A stretch of 64,000 bases of DNA from Costertonia aggregata (GCF_013402795.1 NZ_CP058595.1:3388001-3452000), one strand, 5' to 3'; counted from the stretch's first letter, positions 12,873-40,011 are shown. Translations and numbers: made by a program. The notes: generated by a model from the sequence alone, not told the origin.

Positions 12873-15800
12873 TCACTCTTTGATTATCCTGACTTGTGAT
12901 ACAGTTTTACCTGTTACATCCCTAAGATTCAATATATACACGCCTTTGGGCAAAGTCGTCATATCTAGGGGAGCACTGCCAAATTCATCTACTTTAAAAT
13001 CAAAGGACTCTTTTACCAGCTGCCCCATCATATTATGTAGCGTACCTTTTAAAGTTTGGTTAGAAGTACCTTCTAAAGTAAACTGTGTTATGTTTTCAAC
13101 AGGGTTTGGATATACTTTTCCATTGTTTAAAATAGAATTTGATGTATTTTCCACACTATTTACAACCTCAAAGTTGATGGTAAGCGAAGTCCCAGCCTCC
13201 CCATTTCCTGAGCGTTCCGAAAAAGGAGTCGCGGTTACCGTATTGTTTCCTAATGGAAAACTAACTGAGTTGAAGTTACCATTTCTATCTCCTGCTAATG
13301 TAAAAGGTACGATGCTTTCCGTTTTAAAACCTTGCGTACCATTAAAATCAAAGATGACACTTCTAACAGGAAGGTCCCCTACACTTGCTAAAATGCTAAA
13401 ATTGTTTGAAGCAAAGTCTGCTAGATCGATTATATCACCTTCCAACAATGGACCTACCTCTTCGTTGGTTTCTGCGTTTATAAGTGTGAGACTAGTAATT
13501 TCACTCGCTCGAGTATCTACGACCTCAAAGTTTATCGTTAAAGCGTTACCGACTTCTCCTTCACCATTGGATTCTGAAAACGGAGTTGCTTTCACGGTAT
13601 TGTTGCCCAATGGAAACGATACTGACCTAAAATCACCATTCAAATCACCGTTTAAAGTATAAGGTGCGATATTTTCCGTTTTGAAACCTTCGGTATCGTT
13701 GAAATCAAAAACAACACTTTTAACCGGGGCTTCACCTATACTCGCCAAAATACTAAAACTATTTGATGGGAAATCGGCTAAGTCAATCACATCGCCTTCC
13801 AATAATGGGCCTATCTCTTCATCGGTATCAGCATTTATGAGGGTGAAACTGGTTATTTCTCTTACTCTTGTATCGATTACCTCAAAGTTTATTGTCAAGG
13901 ATTTTCCGGCTTCCCCATTACCGCCACGTTCCGGATAAGGGGTCGCTGTCACTGTGTTGTTACCTAATGGGAAGACAACAGAATTGAAATTGCCGTTCAA
14001 ATCACCTGCCAAGGTAAAGGGCGCTATGTTTTCTGTTTTGAAACCCTCAGTACCATTAAAATCATAAATGACGCTGCTTACCGGAACTTCTCCTACACTA
14101 GCTAAAATACTAAAGCTATTGGATGCAAAATTGGCTAAATCAATTATTGTACCTTCCTCTAGCGGACCTACTTCTTCATTGGTTTCTGCATTTATAAGGG
14201 TGAAATTGGTCACAGTGGGCGCATCCAATACGGTTAATTCAATAAGTGATGTTCCAGTACTCTTATCCGGTGCATTGCTAGAAACATTAAGTTCGTCATA
14301 ATACACATCGGGAGATAAATCAGTGGCATCTAACGTAACGGTCAAATTGCGGGAGCCACCTGCCGGAATTACTCCTGACAACGATGAAATATCACTTATG
14401 AAATTCGTAAGTGGAATTTCAGGTCTAATGAAACGTAAAGCCAACCCATCTTTTATGTAGGGTGTGTTGAAAGCTACCTGAGCCCCATCAGTGGCATCGG
14501 CATTTTCAATACCAACTGTGCCTTGGTCTGTAAACGACGCTGCGTTGACATCATCGTAAAAAACATCTATTGTTCCATCATCCAGAATAATAATCTTGAA
14601 TGTTACCGTTTCTTCAGGATTACCAAAGAATATCGGAGCATTCGTCCACTGAACCACCACAGCATCGGCAAAAGCTGCAATATGCACTGATCCACCTTCT
14701 TCTTGCGGTTCTAAATCTGCCCAGAAACCTGCAATGATATTGTTTATACCATCATCTACAGGTATTTGCCCATTAAAGAAAGTAAATGGACTGGTTGGTG
14801 GTTGAAACGATACGAACCCATTGGCATTTACAAAAAGGCTCTCATAAGTACTGTCATAAAACTCGATGGGAAACGGTAAAGCAAGCTCTGCCGTGCCATC
14901 GGCACCAACAAACTCGGTAAGCTCAAAGCCTATAGTACTTATGTCGAATGGGAAATAAACAGGTCCACCTTCTTCATCGCTATCGATCCACGTGTACCCA
15001 AACTCATCATCCTTGCCCATACTATTGAGTACTTTCGCACCTGAGCGAGTATCCTTAATTCCCTTTTCCTTAGTTTCAAATCCAGAAAACTCGATTAGCT
15101 CTGCATTGTTGCTTATTACGGCACTAGGGTTTGCCAAGGCAGCTGCCATTGTCAATTCTGGAAAGGAATATACCAAAGGAGAACTCCCGTCATTTCGCAA
15201 CGTTATTTCTGTAGTTACCGTTTTACCCGTATCTACAACTTCAAACACTTCTGAAGGGTCTAAAATAGCAGTTGGTGGGTCGACCCCTATACCGTTTACG
15301 ATAACCTCAATAGTATCTGTATCAGGTGCATCGCTGACGATGGAAATAATCCCGTTGATACTTCCAACTGTTGAAGGTGCGAACGTTACCGTAATTTCTT
15401 GCTCTTCTCCACCGGGTATTACCGTTGAAGAAAGGTCAACACTAAAATCCGGGTTATCAGAAGTTATGCTTTCAATGTTCAATAATGCAAGGCCAGTGCT
15501 GCTAATCGTAAAAGTTCGATTATTTTCATTTCCAATGAAAACGTCATTAAACGTCAATAATTCATCTGATACCTCAATACCTGAAACTTGTCCTGAAACC
15601 TCAAAAGAAGTCGCAACCGCGGCAGTTGGTGTAACAGGGTCATTGCTATTCACCAAGATATCTGTTTCAAAAATTCCGTTCGCTAATGAGCTTCCATCAA
15701 AACTTACGGAAACTTCAACACTTTGACCGGGTGCAACAGTACCGGAAGACGGCTCCAACGTGATATAATCCCCTTCGTCCCCGCCACTTAATGCTCTGGT

Positions 15801-18800
15801 CAAAAAGGCAAAGTTGTCAAGGTTGTCATAGCTTGCACCGTTATCCGAACTTGCATAATATGTATCGGGCCTTACCGAAGTCGTGTCAAAAGTCCCTTGG
15901 GAAAAATCAATCCCCTCCGGATATTTGTGGACTACCCAAAATGATTCGCCAGCATTGAATTCTTGAGGTTCATTAAGAATTTCTTCTAAAAAGATACCAT
16001 CGGCACTGGTCTGGGTTATGACCTGCGAGGTCAAGAGTTGGCCCAAATCAGGTGTTTCTCCTCCTCTGATGACTTCGAGAATAATCGATACTTCATCAAG
16101 GTCTTCAGTCTGGTATGCATTTCTGACAGCGTTAAGAGTGAAATCACTTTCCGCATCAAATTTGACCGCAAATGCCAAAGCGGTACCATCCCCAAAACCT
16201 ATAAAATCATCTGGAAAATTGATACCTGTATCGTAAAAGATAGAATCTGAAAATACCCTTGCATTTTTCTCTAGCTCAATATTTTTTGCAGATAATAGCT
16301 TGAGTTTTTTGTTTGGTTTACTTTCAATTGACTTAAGCCTGTTTTTATCAAATCTTTCAGTATTGCCCTGCCCATATTTACGCATGTCCATATTGGCAAT
16401 CAAGTTGGCGCTATTTGTAGAAGGCGGGGAAAATACTGTTGTACCGACACCGGTTGTGAAATTCAATTCGCTTTCACCGGTGTTTGTGATTTGGAACGAA
16501 CGTTCGGCTATCGCGGGGTCGTCGATTCTCACGTCAACAGCAGCGCTTAACGCATCTGGAGTTACACCTATTGTTGGTGGTACTTGAACTGTGAGAGTAA
16601 CAGGTATCTCTATATTCGGATTTGTTTCATCATTACTTGCTACATTAATCGTAGCATTGTAGACACCGGGAACTAGACTTCTTGCGTCAAACTTTACCGT
16701 TGCGGTTTCAGTAGTTCCAAAGGGAACAATGCCTGCTGTGGGCGAAACAGTAAGGAAAAAAGCATTTTCGTCACCGTCTATAATTTCAACATTATCTATG
16801 TCCATAGTAGAACCGACTGCTTCCATCGGGGTTAAAAATACCACTTGTTCTATTTCAGAGGCAAAAGCGGTCCCAGAGAAAACCAATTCGTCGTCAAAGA
16901 AGACTTGCATTGCCGCATCGTCCTTATCAACTATAATCCGTAGATCAAAGTAACCTTCGGGAGTTACGGCAGTAATAGGTATGAAGGCCGATGATCCACC
17001 ATCTAAAATATCTATACTGCGGTCTGCATTGAAACGCACCCGGGTCACCACCGATCCTGCAGCGGGGGATTGCGGGATAACCTCCCACGTAGTACCACTA
17101 CCTTGAATGTTTACTCTGGTAGAGGAGACCATAAAAGGTTCGTTGCCGGGCGTGATTACAGGTGTAAAGGCTAAACGATTACCGCCTAAACCATCAGAAA
17201 CACTACTAATGTGCTGATTTCCCTCAAAAGGATTGGTATTGGTAACGACCCAATCATCAGCTTCGGTAGCTGCCGATATGAACCATCCAAACTGATCATC
17301 GATATTACCAAGGGCATACTCTTCAAAATCACCTGAAAAAAGGTTCGTAACGATTGAATTAAATATACCGTCATGCGAAGTTATCAAAGAAGACAATCCT
17401 TTTGGTGCTCCATTAGTCCCATAATTTCCGGTTTTGAAACCTTCAGTAGCGATAAAATTATTTGTAAGGGTCACCCTGTTTTCAAAGCCGACCGGAGAGA
17501 TACCATCGCTATTGTTAATGGTAATGGTATAGTTTAAGTCATCGTCGCCCGAGTTTTGGATGCTCAAATCTCTAGTGATGACTTGAAATTGATCTATCGT
17601 TTCATCAAAGGATTCTGGTGAGATACCGATCATAGGCGCTTCTGTACCATCTAAAACCCTTAGTGTTACCGGTATGGTCACTGTTCTATCAAACCCTTCA
17701 GTAGTCAGTATGATTTCGTCGGTATAAATGCCTTTTGTAATACCTGTTGTATTGAACTGTACTTGTAGTATGGCAGATTCAGATACATCCAACGTTATTG
17801 TGGCAGGGTCGAATAGCTCTATCAAGGAACCAGGCGCTACGCTAGGCGTAACTACCACGGATTGATCGGATACATTCGTAACGGTCAATTCGCTAATTGA
17901 AATTTCATCTACGTTAATTTCATCGGATATTGAAGATGGCGAGGCCGCAATTGGCGCAGCTCCTGCGATTTGCCATCCCATGTCGCTAAAATGTGCTCTA
18001 GTAATATCACCAATATTGAAATTGGATTCTGAAGCTCCCACTTGTGGGCTCATTAATGAATTGGGGTCACCTGCTGGAAAAGTTGCTTCGTCCCAATGCG
18101 CAATACTGGAGCCTCCTTGAAAAGGATTTGGTGCAAATAGTTCGGGGAGAACACCGCCAAGTGCCGCTACGGCATTTGTGCCATTGACAAAGACATCTCC
18201 ACTGGTGTAGAAGTCTCCCAATTCTTGTGATGGGTTGGGCAGATCAAGTACTGAATTGCCATCGCCATCAACTACGAAAATATCAAAAATGATAGGTACA
18301 CCACCAGCAAAGCCAAGCGAACCTACACCATTGTTATCAACATCTCCACCATCAATAAAACCTAACCCATGGCCAGCTTCATGTAATGCGACAGTGACAA
18401 AGTCAAATAATCCGGCCGGAGTGTTCCCATCTGTTCCAAAATACCATGGAATGCCGTTTCCAAGATTTACCACTAAATCAAATTCTTCTTCGGGATCCAA
18501 GTCAACCCCTGCCAAGGCGTTTGCCAAAGCAGCCGGGTAGAATACACCAGGTTCTGGAGCACCTTCAAAATCCCTAAAAATAGAGGTGGGTCCTGCCGAG
18601 GCAAGAACCCCGGGGCCTAAGTCTGCAAACTCTGCAAAAATCCGGATAGGTACGGTTGAAACAATTTCCTCTGCCCAAATGTCCAAGGCAAACTGGAATG
18701 CGGCCACAACCTCGGGCCTAGACTGTGCCTCGGGACCAAAAGTAACCAAAAGTTCAGCCGTAGCAGATTTTTTGGTACGTGAAAAAGAAGACTTTTTCGC

Positions 18801-18962
18801 CGCCATTTGTGACATGGCTATTCTGGAATGCTGATCTTCATAATTTGCGGGGCAAACTACGATAGGACCAGGCAGTTTTTCCATTTTCTGAGCCTGTGCC
18901 GTTTGAATTCCGCAGAAAACAAAAAGCAAGATAAAAGTGAAAATGCGATAACTTTTTAACAT
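12873..18962 (-). CDS. Giant secreted protein: metzincin-like protease head, choice-of-anchor repeats, T9SS tail
   Basis: 2,029 residues if started at ATG 18962, which gives a clean signal peptide (MLKSYRIFTFILLFVFCG...AQAQ); an in-frame ATG at 19007 would add 15 polar residues. The head (to about 330) has HEAGHGLGFIDG at 194-205, the HExxHxxGxxD zinc site of snapalysin-type metzincins, and a possible Met-turn SLMSPQ. Then come several choice-of-anchor/ASPM-SPD-2-Hydin-like beta domains, a LamG-like segment, three 119-residue repeats and a Por-type T9SS domain (VYPNP...KGVYILNL...RIIKE). Expected to be exported by T9SS and attached to or released from the cell surface. Single-gene unit. Whether the head is active is unproved. 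Confidence 0.85.
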   Translation of the reverse strand: MLKSYRIFTFILLFVFCGIQTAQAQKMEKLPGPIVVCPANYEDQHSRIAMSQMAAKKSSFSRTKKSATAELLVTFGPEAQSRPEVVAAFQFALDIWAEEIVSTVPIRIFAEFADLGPGVLASAGPTSIFRDFEGAPEPGVFYPAALANALAGVDLDPEEEFDLVVNLGNGIPWYFGTDGNTPAGLFDFVTVALHEAGHGLGFIDGGDVDNNGVGSLGFAGGVPIIFDIFVVDGDGNSVLDLPNPSQELGDFYTSGDVFVNGTNAVAALGGVLPELFAPNPFQGGSSIAHWDEATFPAGDPNSLMSPQVGASESNFNIGDITRAHFSDMGWQIAGAAPIAASPSSISDEINVDEISISELTVTNVSDQSVVVTPSVAPGSLIELFDPATITLDVSESAILQVQFNTTGITKGIYTDEIILTTEGFDRTVTIPVTLRVLDGTEAPMIGISPESFDETIDQFQVITRDLSIQNSGDDDLNYTITINNSDGISPVGFENRVTLTNNFIATEGFKTGNYGTNGAPKGLSSLITSHDGIFNSIVTNLFSGDFEEYALGNIDDQFGWFISAATEADDWVVTNTNPFEGNQHISSVSDGLGGNRLAFTPVITPGNEPFMVSSTRVNIQGSGTTWEVIPQSPAAGSVVTRVRFNADRSIDILDGGSSAFIPITAVTPEGYFDLRIIVDKDDAAMQVFFDDELVFSGTAFASEIEQVVFLTPMEAVGSTMDIDNVEIIDGDENAFFLTVSPTAGIVPFGTTETATVKFDARSLVPGVYNATINVASNDETNPNIEIPVTLTVQVPPTIGVTPDALSAAVDVRIDDPAIAERSFQITNTGESELNFTTGVGTTVFSPPSTNSANLIANMDMRKYGQGNTERFDKNRLKSIESKPNKKLKLLSAKNIELEKNARVFSDSIFYDTGINFPDDFIGFGDGTALAFAVKFDAESDFTLNAVRNAYQTEDLDEVSIILEVIRGGETPDLGQLLTSQVITQTSADGIFLEEILNEPQEFNAGESFWVVHKYPEGIDFSQGTFDTTSVRPDTYYASSDNGASYDNLDNFAFLTRALSGGDEGDYITLEPSSGTVAPGQSVEVSVSFDGSSLANGIFETDILVNSNDPVTPTAAVATSFEVSGQVSGIEVSDELLTFNDVFIGNENNRTFTISSTGLALLNIESITSDNPDFSVDLSSTVIPGGEEQEITVTFAPSTVGSINGIISIVSDAPDTDTIEVIVNGIGVDPPTAILDPSEVFEVVDTGKTVTTEITLRNDGSSPLVYSFPELTMAAALANPSAVISNNAELIEFSGFETKEKGIKDTRSGAKVLNSMGKDDEFGYTWIDSDEEGGPVYFPFDISTIGFELTEFVGADGTAELALPFPIEFYDSTYESLFVNANGFVSFQPPTSPFTFFNGQIPVDDGINNIIAGFWADLEPQEEGGSVHIAAFADAVVVQWTNAPIFFGNPEETVTFKIIILDDGTIDVFYDDVNAASFTDQGTVGIENADATDGAQVAFNTPYIKDGLALRFIRPEIPLTNFISDISSLSGVIPAGGSRNLTVTLDATDLSPDVYYDELNVSSNAPDKSTGTSLIELTVLDAPTVTNFTLINAETNEEVGPLEEGTIIDLANFASNSFSILASVGEVPVSSVIYDFNGTEGFKTENIAPFTLAGDLNGNFNSVVFPLGNNTVTATPYPERGGNGEAGKSLTINFEVIDTRVREITSFTLINADTDEEIGPLLEGDVIDLADFPSNSFSILASIGEAPVKSVVFDFNDTEGFKTENIAPYTLNGDLNGDFRSVSFPLGNNTVKATPFSESNGEGEVGNALTINFEVVDTRASEITSLTLINAETNEEVGPLLEGDIIDLADFASNNFSILASVGDLPVRSVIFDFNGTQGFKTESIVPFTLAGDRNGNFNSVSFPLGNNTVTATPFSERSGNGEAGTSLTINFEVVNSVENTSNSILNNGKVYPNPVENITQFTLEGTSNQTLKGTLHNMMGQLVKESFDFKVDEFGSAPLDMTTLPKGVYILNLRDVTGKTVSQVRIIKE
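13144..14214 (-). repeat. Three tandem 119-residue (357 bp) repeats in the giant secreted protein
   Basis: Units lie at about 13858-14214, 13501-13857 and 13144-13500. Each opens with a line like FTLINAETNEEVGPL, contains SNSFSILASVGE, FDFNGTEGFKTENIAPF and PLGNNTVTATPF, and closes with SLTINFEVVDT. They are highly similar at protein level and recognisably alike at DNA level. Similar modules occur in other secreted bacterial proteins next to carbohydrate-binding domains, so an Ig-like linker or binding role is likely. Edges are approximate. Confidence 0.88.
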
Positions 18963-19007
18963 GCTAAATGTTAAAAAATTATCACACCATGAGTAATTTT
19001 TTTTCAT

Positions 19008-38868: not shown

Positions 38869-40011
38869 ATGAGATTTTTGTCTCTGTTTTTTGCTTTATT
38901 TAACTTTCTATTTGCCCTAAGCCAGCAAGATATTGATGCTTTAGGTGAACTAACCGATGAACTATCCGAAAATTCCGGATTGATTTTTTATGATGGCCGA
39001 CTCATTACACACAACGATTCAGGCAATTCCCCACAATTGTTTGAAATTGATACGGTTACATTGCAAATTGCCAGAACAATAACACTTACCAATGCATCGA
39101 ATGTAGACTGGGAAGATATTACCCAAGACGATGAATTTATATACGTTGGTGATTTTGGGAACAATAGTGGGGTTAGGCAAGACTTGTCAATCTATAAAAT
39201 CAGCAAAGAAGATTATAAAAAATCAGATAATGTAGTTACGGAGAGAATTGATTTCAAGTATGAAAATCAAACAGATTTTATAAAAAACGGCAACAGCGAT
39301 TGGGATGCAGAGGCCATGTTTGTTTTGGACGATACGCTTATTATACTTACGAAACAATGGAAAAGTATGCGGACCTCCGCATATAGTGTTCCCACGGAAA
39401 CAGGTTTGCATACGGCCAAATTACTTGGCTCACATGAGGTCAACGGATTGGTAACGGGAGCTACTTACAATACCGTTTCAGATGTTCTGTACCTCTCCGG
39501 GTACTCTCCGTTTTTACAACCTTTTATTGTTCGTGTAGATGGTGTTGAAACAAAAAATATCTTTGGTAATAATCAGGTGAAGATGATGCTCAATATAGAT
39601 TTTGCCCAAATCGAAGGGATAACCTGGGTAGACAAGAATCGCTATTTTTTGTCATCTGAACTCTTTGAGAATGCCAACCCGCCCGTACGGTTAAAATCAC
39701 AATTATTTACATTCACTTCGGAAGATAAGGTAGAGTCAGATGATATTCTTGATGAAGGTGGGCAACTAGATGAAGAAAAATTGGTAATCTATAGAAAACC
39801 AAATTCCTCTATATTGCAATATAACTTCAGTATCGATAAAGAATTACAAAGTAGGGCCATATATGATACGACTGGGAAACGGGTACAATTTTCCTTGGGC
39901 GATACCGTAGAAAATACCGATATTGATTTATCGGCGTTCCAAAAATCGATATACTATCTCACTTTTCATTTTAATGGGCGTACCGTGTCCAAGCCATTTA
40001 TCTGGGATTAA
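38869..40011 (+). CDS. Secreted protein with T9SS-like C-terminus, unknown function
   Basis: 380 residues. Signal peptide MRFLSLFFALFNFLFALS. The body has repeated blade-like stretches (SGLIFYDGRLITHNDSGNS, NASNVDWEDITQDDEFIYVG, SDVLYLSGYSP), which suggest a beta-propeller. The last 65 residues look like a T9SS sorting domain (SRAIYDTTGKRVQFSLGD, then SIYYLTFHFNGRTVSKPF). Single-gene unit. Divergent from the photolyase operon. Confidence 0.78.
   Translation: MRFLSLFFALFNFLFALSQQDIDALGELTDELSENSGLIFYDGRLITHNDSGNSPQLFEIDTVTLQIARTITLTNASNVDWEDITQDDEFIYVGDFGNNSGVRQDLSIYKISKEDYKKSDNVVTERIDFKYENQTDFIKNGNSDWDAEAMFVLDDTLIILTKQWKSMRTSAYSVPTETGLHTAKLLGSHEVNGLVTGATYNTVSDVLYLSGYSPFLQPFIVRVDGVETKNIFGNNQVKMMLNIDFAQIEGITWVDKNRYFLSSELFENANPPVRLKSQLFTFTSEDKVESDDILDEGGQLDEEKLVIYRKPNSSILQYNFSIDKELQSRAIYDTTGKRVQFSLGDTVENTDIDLSAFQKSIYYLTFHFNGRTVSKPFIWD

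Follow-up and report, generated by a model that had tools for sequence, protein, structure and literature searches.

What does a single uninterrupted reading frame of some two thousand codons in the genome of Costertonia aggregata encode, and which residues of its N-terminal head would hold a zinc ion? The frame lies on the minus strand (12873..19007) of a 64,000-nucleotide stretch of this genome (GCF_013402795.1, NZ_CP058595.1:3388001-3452000), hereafter called the window. An earlier note, made from the sequence alone, had read positions 12873-18962 as the gene of a secreted protein of 2,029 residues, in which a snapalysin-like zinc site precedes a long repeat scaffold and a type IX secretion system (T9SS) tail; residue numbers throughout follow its count, from the ATG at 18962. 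The parts follow one another in the order signal peptide, zincin head (residues 26-335), HYDIN/choice-of-anchor D Ig-like modules, nidogen-like (NIDO) stretch (1375-1429), three repeats (1585-1941) and T9SS tail (1950-2029), and the mature protein has a computed mass of about 213 kDa and an isoelectric point of 4.05. We consider it likely that this protein is a T9SS-exported latent zinc endopeptidase carrying a leishmanolysin-type metzincin head on a carbohydrate- or matrix-binding scaffold. The finding is real and goes beyond a chance motif: we read the protein as a leishmanolysin-type metzincin whose family seems not to have been studied, mounted on a T9SS-exported scaffold of unusual size.

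Proposed zinc ligands of the head

The head (17958..18887, minus strand, as for all parts of the protein below) consists of a short N-terminal segment and a metzincin catalytic domain, and HEAGHGLGFIDG is found at residues 194-205. It was aligned with the heads of 80 relatives collected from a genome collection, giving 81 sequences with the window protein. H194, E195, H198 and G199 are invariant in this alignment (81/81) and G201 is present in 80 of the 81 heads; from this conservation, H194 and H198 of the HEAGHGLG motif (18360..18383) are assigned as putative zinc ligands and E195 as general base. D204 (18351..18353), which the earlier note had named as the third ligand of an HExxHxxGxxD pattern, is not conserved: the column holds D in 12 of the 81 heads, G in 48 and S in 10. 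In contrast, H289 (18096..18098, in AHWDE) is found in all 81 and M304 (18051..18053, in NSLMSP) in 80, both within the block AHWDEATFP..NSLMSP. H289 lies 91 residues after H198, the second-to-third His distance being 87-109 family-wide; 87 residues stand between G201 and H289, and the distance from the third His to the Met is 15 in 70 of the 81 heads. The invariant ligand set spans Bacteroidota, Chloroflexota, Poribacteria, Actinomycetota and other phyla. The head combines the features by which metzincins are recognised, namely HExxHxxG, a candidate third His ligand and a Met-turn, and its top structural matches are all metzincins. We propose that H289, not D204, sits as the third ligand and that M304 forms the Met-turn, both placed as in leishmanolysin; from its sequence, the head is predicted to bind zinc and to act as a protease.

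These counts bear directly on the snapalysin-like (M7-type) assignment, in which zinc would be held by H194, H198 and D204 of the contiguous motif. HEAGHGLGFID does fit that pattern, and the D recurs in L037-L041 and L046; in other giant proteins of the same clade, however, the position is T, S or A, while H289 stays invariant. Within a limit of E 1, Pfam M7 (PF02031) matched one of the 72 heads tested, at 0.09, and not the window protein, and the relatives that exceed the cut-off of the NCBIfam model NF038122 lack the D but retain SHW...MDP. The shared HExxHxxGxxD letters are best seen as coincidental in the window subgroup. The D is unconserved, a separate His is invariant and the catalytic domain is much larger than that of snapalysin. 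The snapalysin assignment was dropped on these conservation data, and we regard it as very improbable.

Protease family and fold

A leishmanolysin-like layout had been deduced from the sequence before fold searching began. AlphaFold2 modelled the head with a predicted local distance difference test score (pLDDT) of 94.4 and a predicted template modelling score of 0.92. Among the chains re-aligned to this predicted model with VIA-align 2, leishmanolysin (1lml) came first, with a Z score of 14.9 over 193 aligned residues (root-mean-square deviation 4.1), before karilysin (Z 12.1 over 135 residues) and human matrix metalloproteinases (MMPs; Z about 12). A plain Foldseek search of the head ranked MMPs first, with poor TM-scores by query of 0.21-0.22, and leishmanolysin was absent among its best 50 matches. 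Because Foldseek put MMPs first, the leishmanolysin call rests on VIA-align 2, the sequence layout and hhalign. In the hhalign comparison, two Bacteroidota proteins aligned with the H289-M304-W330 block through their HWRE/NELMTG/DLGY (E 1.3e-8, for a single pair and this C-terminal block only). Both match Pfam M8 over its cut-off; H289 is thus paired with the HWRE of bacterial M8 proteins. When solved structures were searched with the head as a single sequence, nothing matched; a profile gave weak MMP and karilysin matches, for the most part at the HExxH helix, the best with an E of 0.0011.

Leishmanolysins have about 62 residues between the Gly and the third His, this large insertion being a hallmark (PMC11957388), and the ligands of an invadolysin are H231, H235 and H336, with its Met at 347 (PMC9928134). 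The window protein resembles leishmanolysin/M8 (PDB 1lml) in its large Gly-to-third-His insert, in the proposed Met-turn after the third His and in the top structural match, whereas it has one mature Cys instead of many and a T9SS tail instead of a glycosylphosphatidylinositol anchor. M8 proteins are typically Cys-rich, and GP63 has 19 Cys. For the window protein, Pfam M8 (PF01457) returned no match within E 1; it matched 3 of the 72 heads (best 0.027) and had no match over its cut-off in the window genome. Because Pfam M8 gave no match and the Cys richness is lacking, the head is not filed in M8; its predicted activity is almost certainly that of a zinc protease of leishmanolysin build, working as a leishmanolysin-type metzincin. 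Two other sequences are worth recording here: L117 and L118, from Bacteroidota of the window genome's class, are about 350 residues long, exceed the Pfam Peptidase_M8 cut-off and read HEMGH...HWRE...NELMTG. They may form a bridge from M8 to the family described next.

The earlier note had suggested a domain search and a structure prediction of the head. Besides the confident metzincin fold, these gave a match to NF038122 (metallo_LGF), below its cut-off, and no Pfam model over its own cut-off. NF038122 matched 72 of the 72 heads tested. Members over its cut-off read HExxHxLGF...SHW...MDP and lack an equivalent of D204. The window head shares with them HExxHxLGF, the SHW about 90 residues later and an M-P turn, so that the HW ... 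MxP pattern is present, but reads LMSP where they read MDP, and their frames (mostly 366-866 residues, one of 1,246) are shorter than the window giant. The head is homologous to NF038122 and, because it nonetheless falls under the 80-bit cut-off, we place it as a neighbour or diverged branch of metallo_LGF. The view that no named family covers the arrangement was accordingly right in that no model spans the whole protein, but the head does have a named, if sub-threshold, relative and the arrangement recurs in about ten relatives. Searches of open-licence papers returned nothing for NF038122 or metallo_LGF, and nothing for bacterial leishmanolysin-like proteins in Bacteroidetes; the protease family appears to be named in databases, by motif only, and never studied. 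Tentatively, and with rather more doubt than confidence, the metallo_LGF relatives may represent a prokaryotic branch of the leishmanolysin (M8) lineage that has gone unrecognised and extends over many phyla; in Bacteroidota it would have a lone-Cys latency of its own, and one subgroup would sit on giant T9SS scaffolds that bind sugars. The analysis links metallo_LGF to leishmanolysin, which is known chiefly from work on eukaryotic parasites and animals, and offers a mechanism, proposed zinc ligands and a latency hypothesis for a widespread bacterial family.

Two further assignments were rejected. Matrixin (M10) was set aside as D, not H, occupies the last position of the contiguous HExxHxxGxxH motif and PF00413 scored 13.7 bits against a cut-off of 24. 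The elastase FP0506 of F. psychrophilum was dropped as an analogue, being a predicted gluzincin lipoprotein that lacks a T9SS tail.

Possible latency, export and scaffold

The sole Cys of the mature protein, C37 (18852..18854), is part of a CPAxFED-like motif, 12 residues past the point where the signal peptide is predicted to be cleaved. Its column holds Cys in 37 of 80 heads, and L038 and L039 likewise have their sole mature Cys at this position. In the VIA-align 2 rows for proMMP-9 (5th9 and 5ue4), alignment starts with residue 11 of the model, which adjoins C37, against residue 98; the latter is next to C99, the switch Cys of MMP-9. Mirolysin, ulilysin and cytophagalysin carry such an N-terminal Cys (PMC11674741). 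From its position, C37 is a plausible cysteine switch, a role towards which we lean. The same metzincin could instead be constitutively active, C37 serving in dimerisation or being a chance survivor: L046, of the same clade, lacks the Cys, and the column is mostly L, V, I or Y in Chloroflexota, Poribacteria and others. Speaking for a switch are the retention of C37 as the only mature Cys in the window protein, L038 and L039, and its fixed place right before the catalytic domain, as in the three proteases named above (PMC11674741). We rate constitutive activity as a serious contender, somewhat short of an even chance.

The T9SS tail noticed in the earlier note is a type A C-terminal sorting domain (12879..13115) that exceeds the cut-offs of both TIGR04183 (34.3 bits against 23) and Pfam Por_Secre_tail PF18962 (36.3 against 27). 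SprA, the T9SS component searched for, is found in the window genome with 2878 bits. The protein is predicted to be exported via T9SS, and its location is deduced from the tail. With an active-site-complete family, a predicted metzincin fold, this tail and SprA, the idea of a T9SS-exported protease head on a long repeat scaffold is well supported. The window holds a second T9SS-tail protein of 380 residues (38869-40011, plus strand), which scored 24.8 bits with TIGR04183 in the genome search and 21.8 in the protein scan (cut-off 23); NCBIfam recognised nothing else in it.

The three kinds of scaffold module that had been read from the sequence were all recovered. Among several HYDIN/choice-of-anchor D Ig-like modules, the best covers residues 1129-1220 (15303..15578; Pfam PF22544, 4.3e-26; NF012200, 1.3e-16). 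In the predicted fold (AlphaFold2 pLDDT 90.4), the LamG-like part (residues 541-729; 16776..17342) takes the form of a ConA-like jelly roll, which appears to be inserted in an Ig-like module. A sequence search of this part against solved structures found no significant match; its model matched residues 415-612 of BT_1020 with a Z of 19.2 in VIA-align 2, as well as many GH16 and lectin-like jelly rolls, and Cip1 (1.9e-8) and CBM66 in Foldseek. The ConA-like fold points to carbohydrate binding. A NIDO stretch (residues 1375-1429; 14676..14840), absent from the earlier description, scored 28.7 bits with PF06119 against a cut-off of 25 and was matched likewise in four relatives. Sequence comparison placed three repeats exactly 119 residues apart, at residues 1585-1703 (13854..14210), 1704-1822 (13497..13853) and 1823-1941 (13140..13496), with 71-77% identity and no match in Pfam or NCBIfam. 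The repeat unit (13140-14210) reads FTLINAETNEEVGPL...NNTVTATP...LTINFEV; 11 of the 81 proteins carry it, with one to three copies each.

A related head is found at 8001-8906 in L045, from an uncultured Flavobacteriaceae, on a scaffold of PARCEL repeats (1.1e-138 to the Mbov_0838 PARCEL model, which is below its cut-off; TIGR02167 over cut-off). Because L045 bears a related head on PARCEL repeats, heads and scaffolds have been recombined. Such swapping also counts against the possibility that the head is catalytically dead and structural or adhesive, the protein being a surface scaffold. Beta-sandwich modules and repeats do make up most of its length, activity is known for no member and a fold by itself shows no function. 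Yet the catalytic and ligand residues, E195 included, are invariant over many phyla, which is unusual in a pseudoenzyme, and the head occurs with little beyond the tail in proteins of 410-480 residues, which marks it as the functional core. We judge a dead head unlikely.

We propose the following mechanism for an active, latent protease, in which zinc binding, activity, latency, substrate and final location are predicted from computed sequence features, conservation, fold, export tail and SprA. H194 and H198 would hold the zinc and E195 would act as general base; the chain would leave the active-site helix at G201 and, after the insert of about 87 residues, return with H289 as third ligand and M304 in the Met-turn. 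The protein is probably made as a zymogen in which C37, in the short N-terminal segment, caps the zinc until this segment is cut. Sec export would be followed by T9SS passage across the outer membrane, with the C-terminal domain directing the protein to the cell surface or the medium and then being removed, and by activation once the C37 segment is lost. A long arm, made up of the ConA-like domain, Ig-like modules, NIDO stretch and three repeats, would bind a substrate-bearing polysaccharide or matrix, and peptides would be cleaved at the surface or matrix that the arm holds. In coupling a metzincin to a lectin-like arm, the giants of Bacteroidota make peptide removal from glycoprotein or polysaccharide matrices a possible function.

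A known analogue is cytophagalysin, which has the same plan of a Cys prosegment, a metzincin domain, Ig-like domains and a possible T9SS C-terminal domain (PMC11674741). Cytophagalysin CPL1 (M43 pappalysin, from Cytophaga) is, like the window protein, a secreted metzincin of Bacteroidota with the prosegment Cys at the N-terminus; it differs in its metzincin family, whose third ligand follows the Gly by three positions, and in its mass of 137 kDa as against about 213 kDa. A ConA-like insert and 119-residue repeats are not described for CPL1 in the excerpts considered.

Several observations weigh against the mechanism as proposed. The window head reaches no Pfam peptidase cut-off, its NF038122 match amounts to 56 bits for the whole protein and 63 bits for the head against a curated 80, and with one Cys the mature protein departs from M8-type richness. 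Both the zinc geometry and the placing of C37 come from alignment and conservation, not from coordinates. D204 is kept in most of the nearest relatives and may have a local role there, neither L046, a close relative, nor many distant relatives have C37, and the sugar-binding role is deduced solely from fold.

Distribution, gene context and start

Together, the giants of the window architecture make up a single supported clade of 10 rows (99/92). Its members include Tenacibaculum, Allomuricauda, Robiginitalea, Croceitalea, Marivirga and Neolewinella, as well as L040, which is truncated at its contig end. Among 299 Flavobacteriaceae genomes, 28 have any match, and 7, counting the window's own, have heads of at least 64% identity in frames of 1,915-2,361 residues. 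The viral contigs searched held no relatives. No flanking open reading frame (ORF) of at least 150 residues is common to the window and the loci of six relatives, and the flanking genes of the window are housekeeping in appearance. Because its presence is sporadic and no neighbour gene is conserved, the gene looks like a stand-alone accessory gene.

The open frame ending at 12873 on the minus strand is real, but its start is most likely at 19007, giving 2,044 residues, and not at the 18962 of the earlier reading (2,029). This start is likelier because the orthologue L037 begins with the same reading, ATGAAAAAAAA(T/C)TAC / MKKNY, and has an equally long N-terminus; L039, L042 and L046 begin with MKKNY, MKKTY and MKQNY, respectively. 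From 19007, the predicted signal peptide (18888..19007) contains the hydrophobic ILLFVFCGIQTAQAQ, with cleavage presumed after AQAQ. The first codons also hold a 20-pair A+T-rich hairpin (18942-18988, minus strand), which closely follows the ATG at 19007 and overlaps that at 18962. Its minimum free energy is -21.9 kcal/mol over 91 nucleotides (z -5.1; none of 200 shuffles was equally stable), and its sequence is not common to L037 in the comparison with that orthologue. Its place near the start codons makes translation control possible. Opposite the gene, the plus strand carries long antisense ORFs at 12880-13662 and 14992-15726; L039 has an antisense counterpart resembling part of one of them, as is expected given the conserved sense protein.

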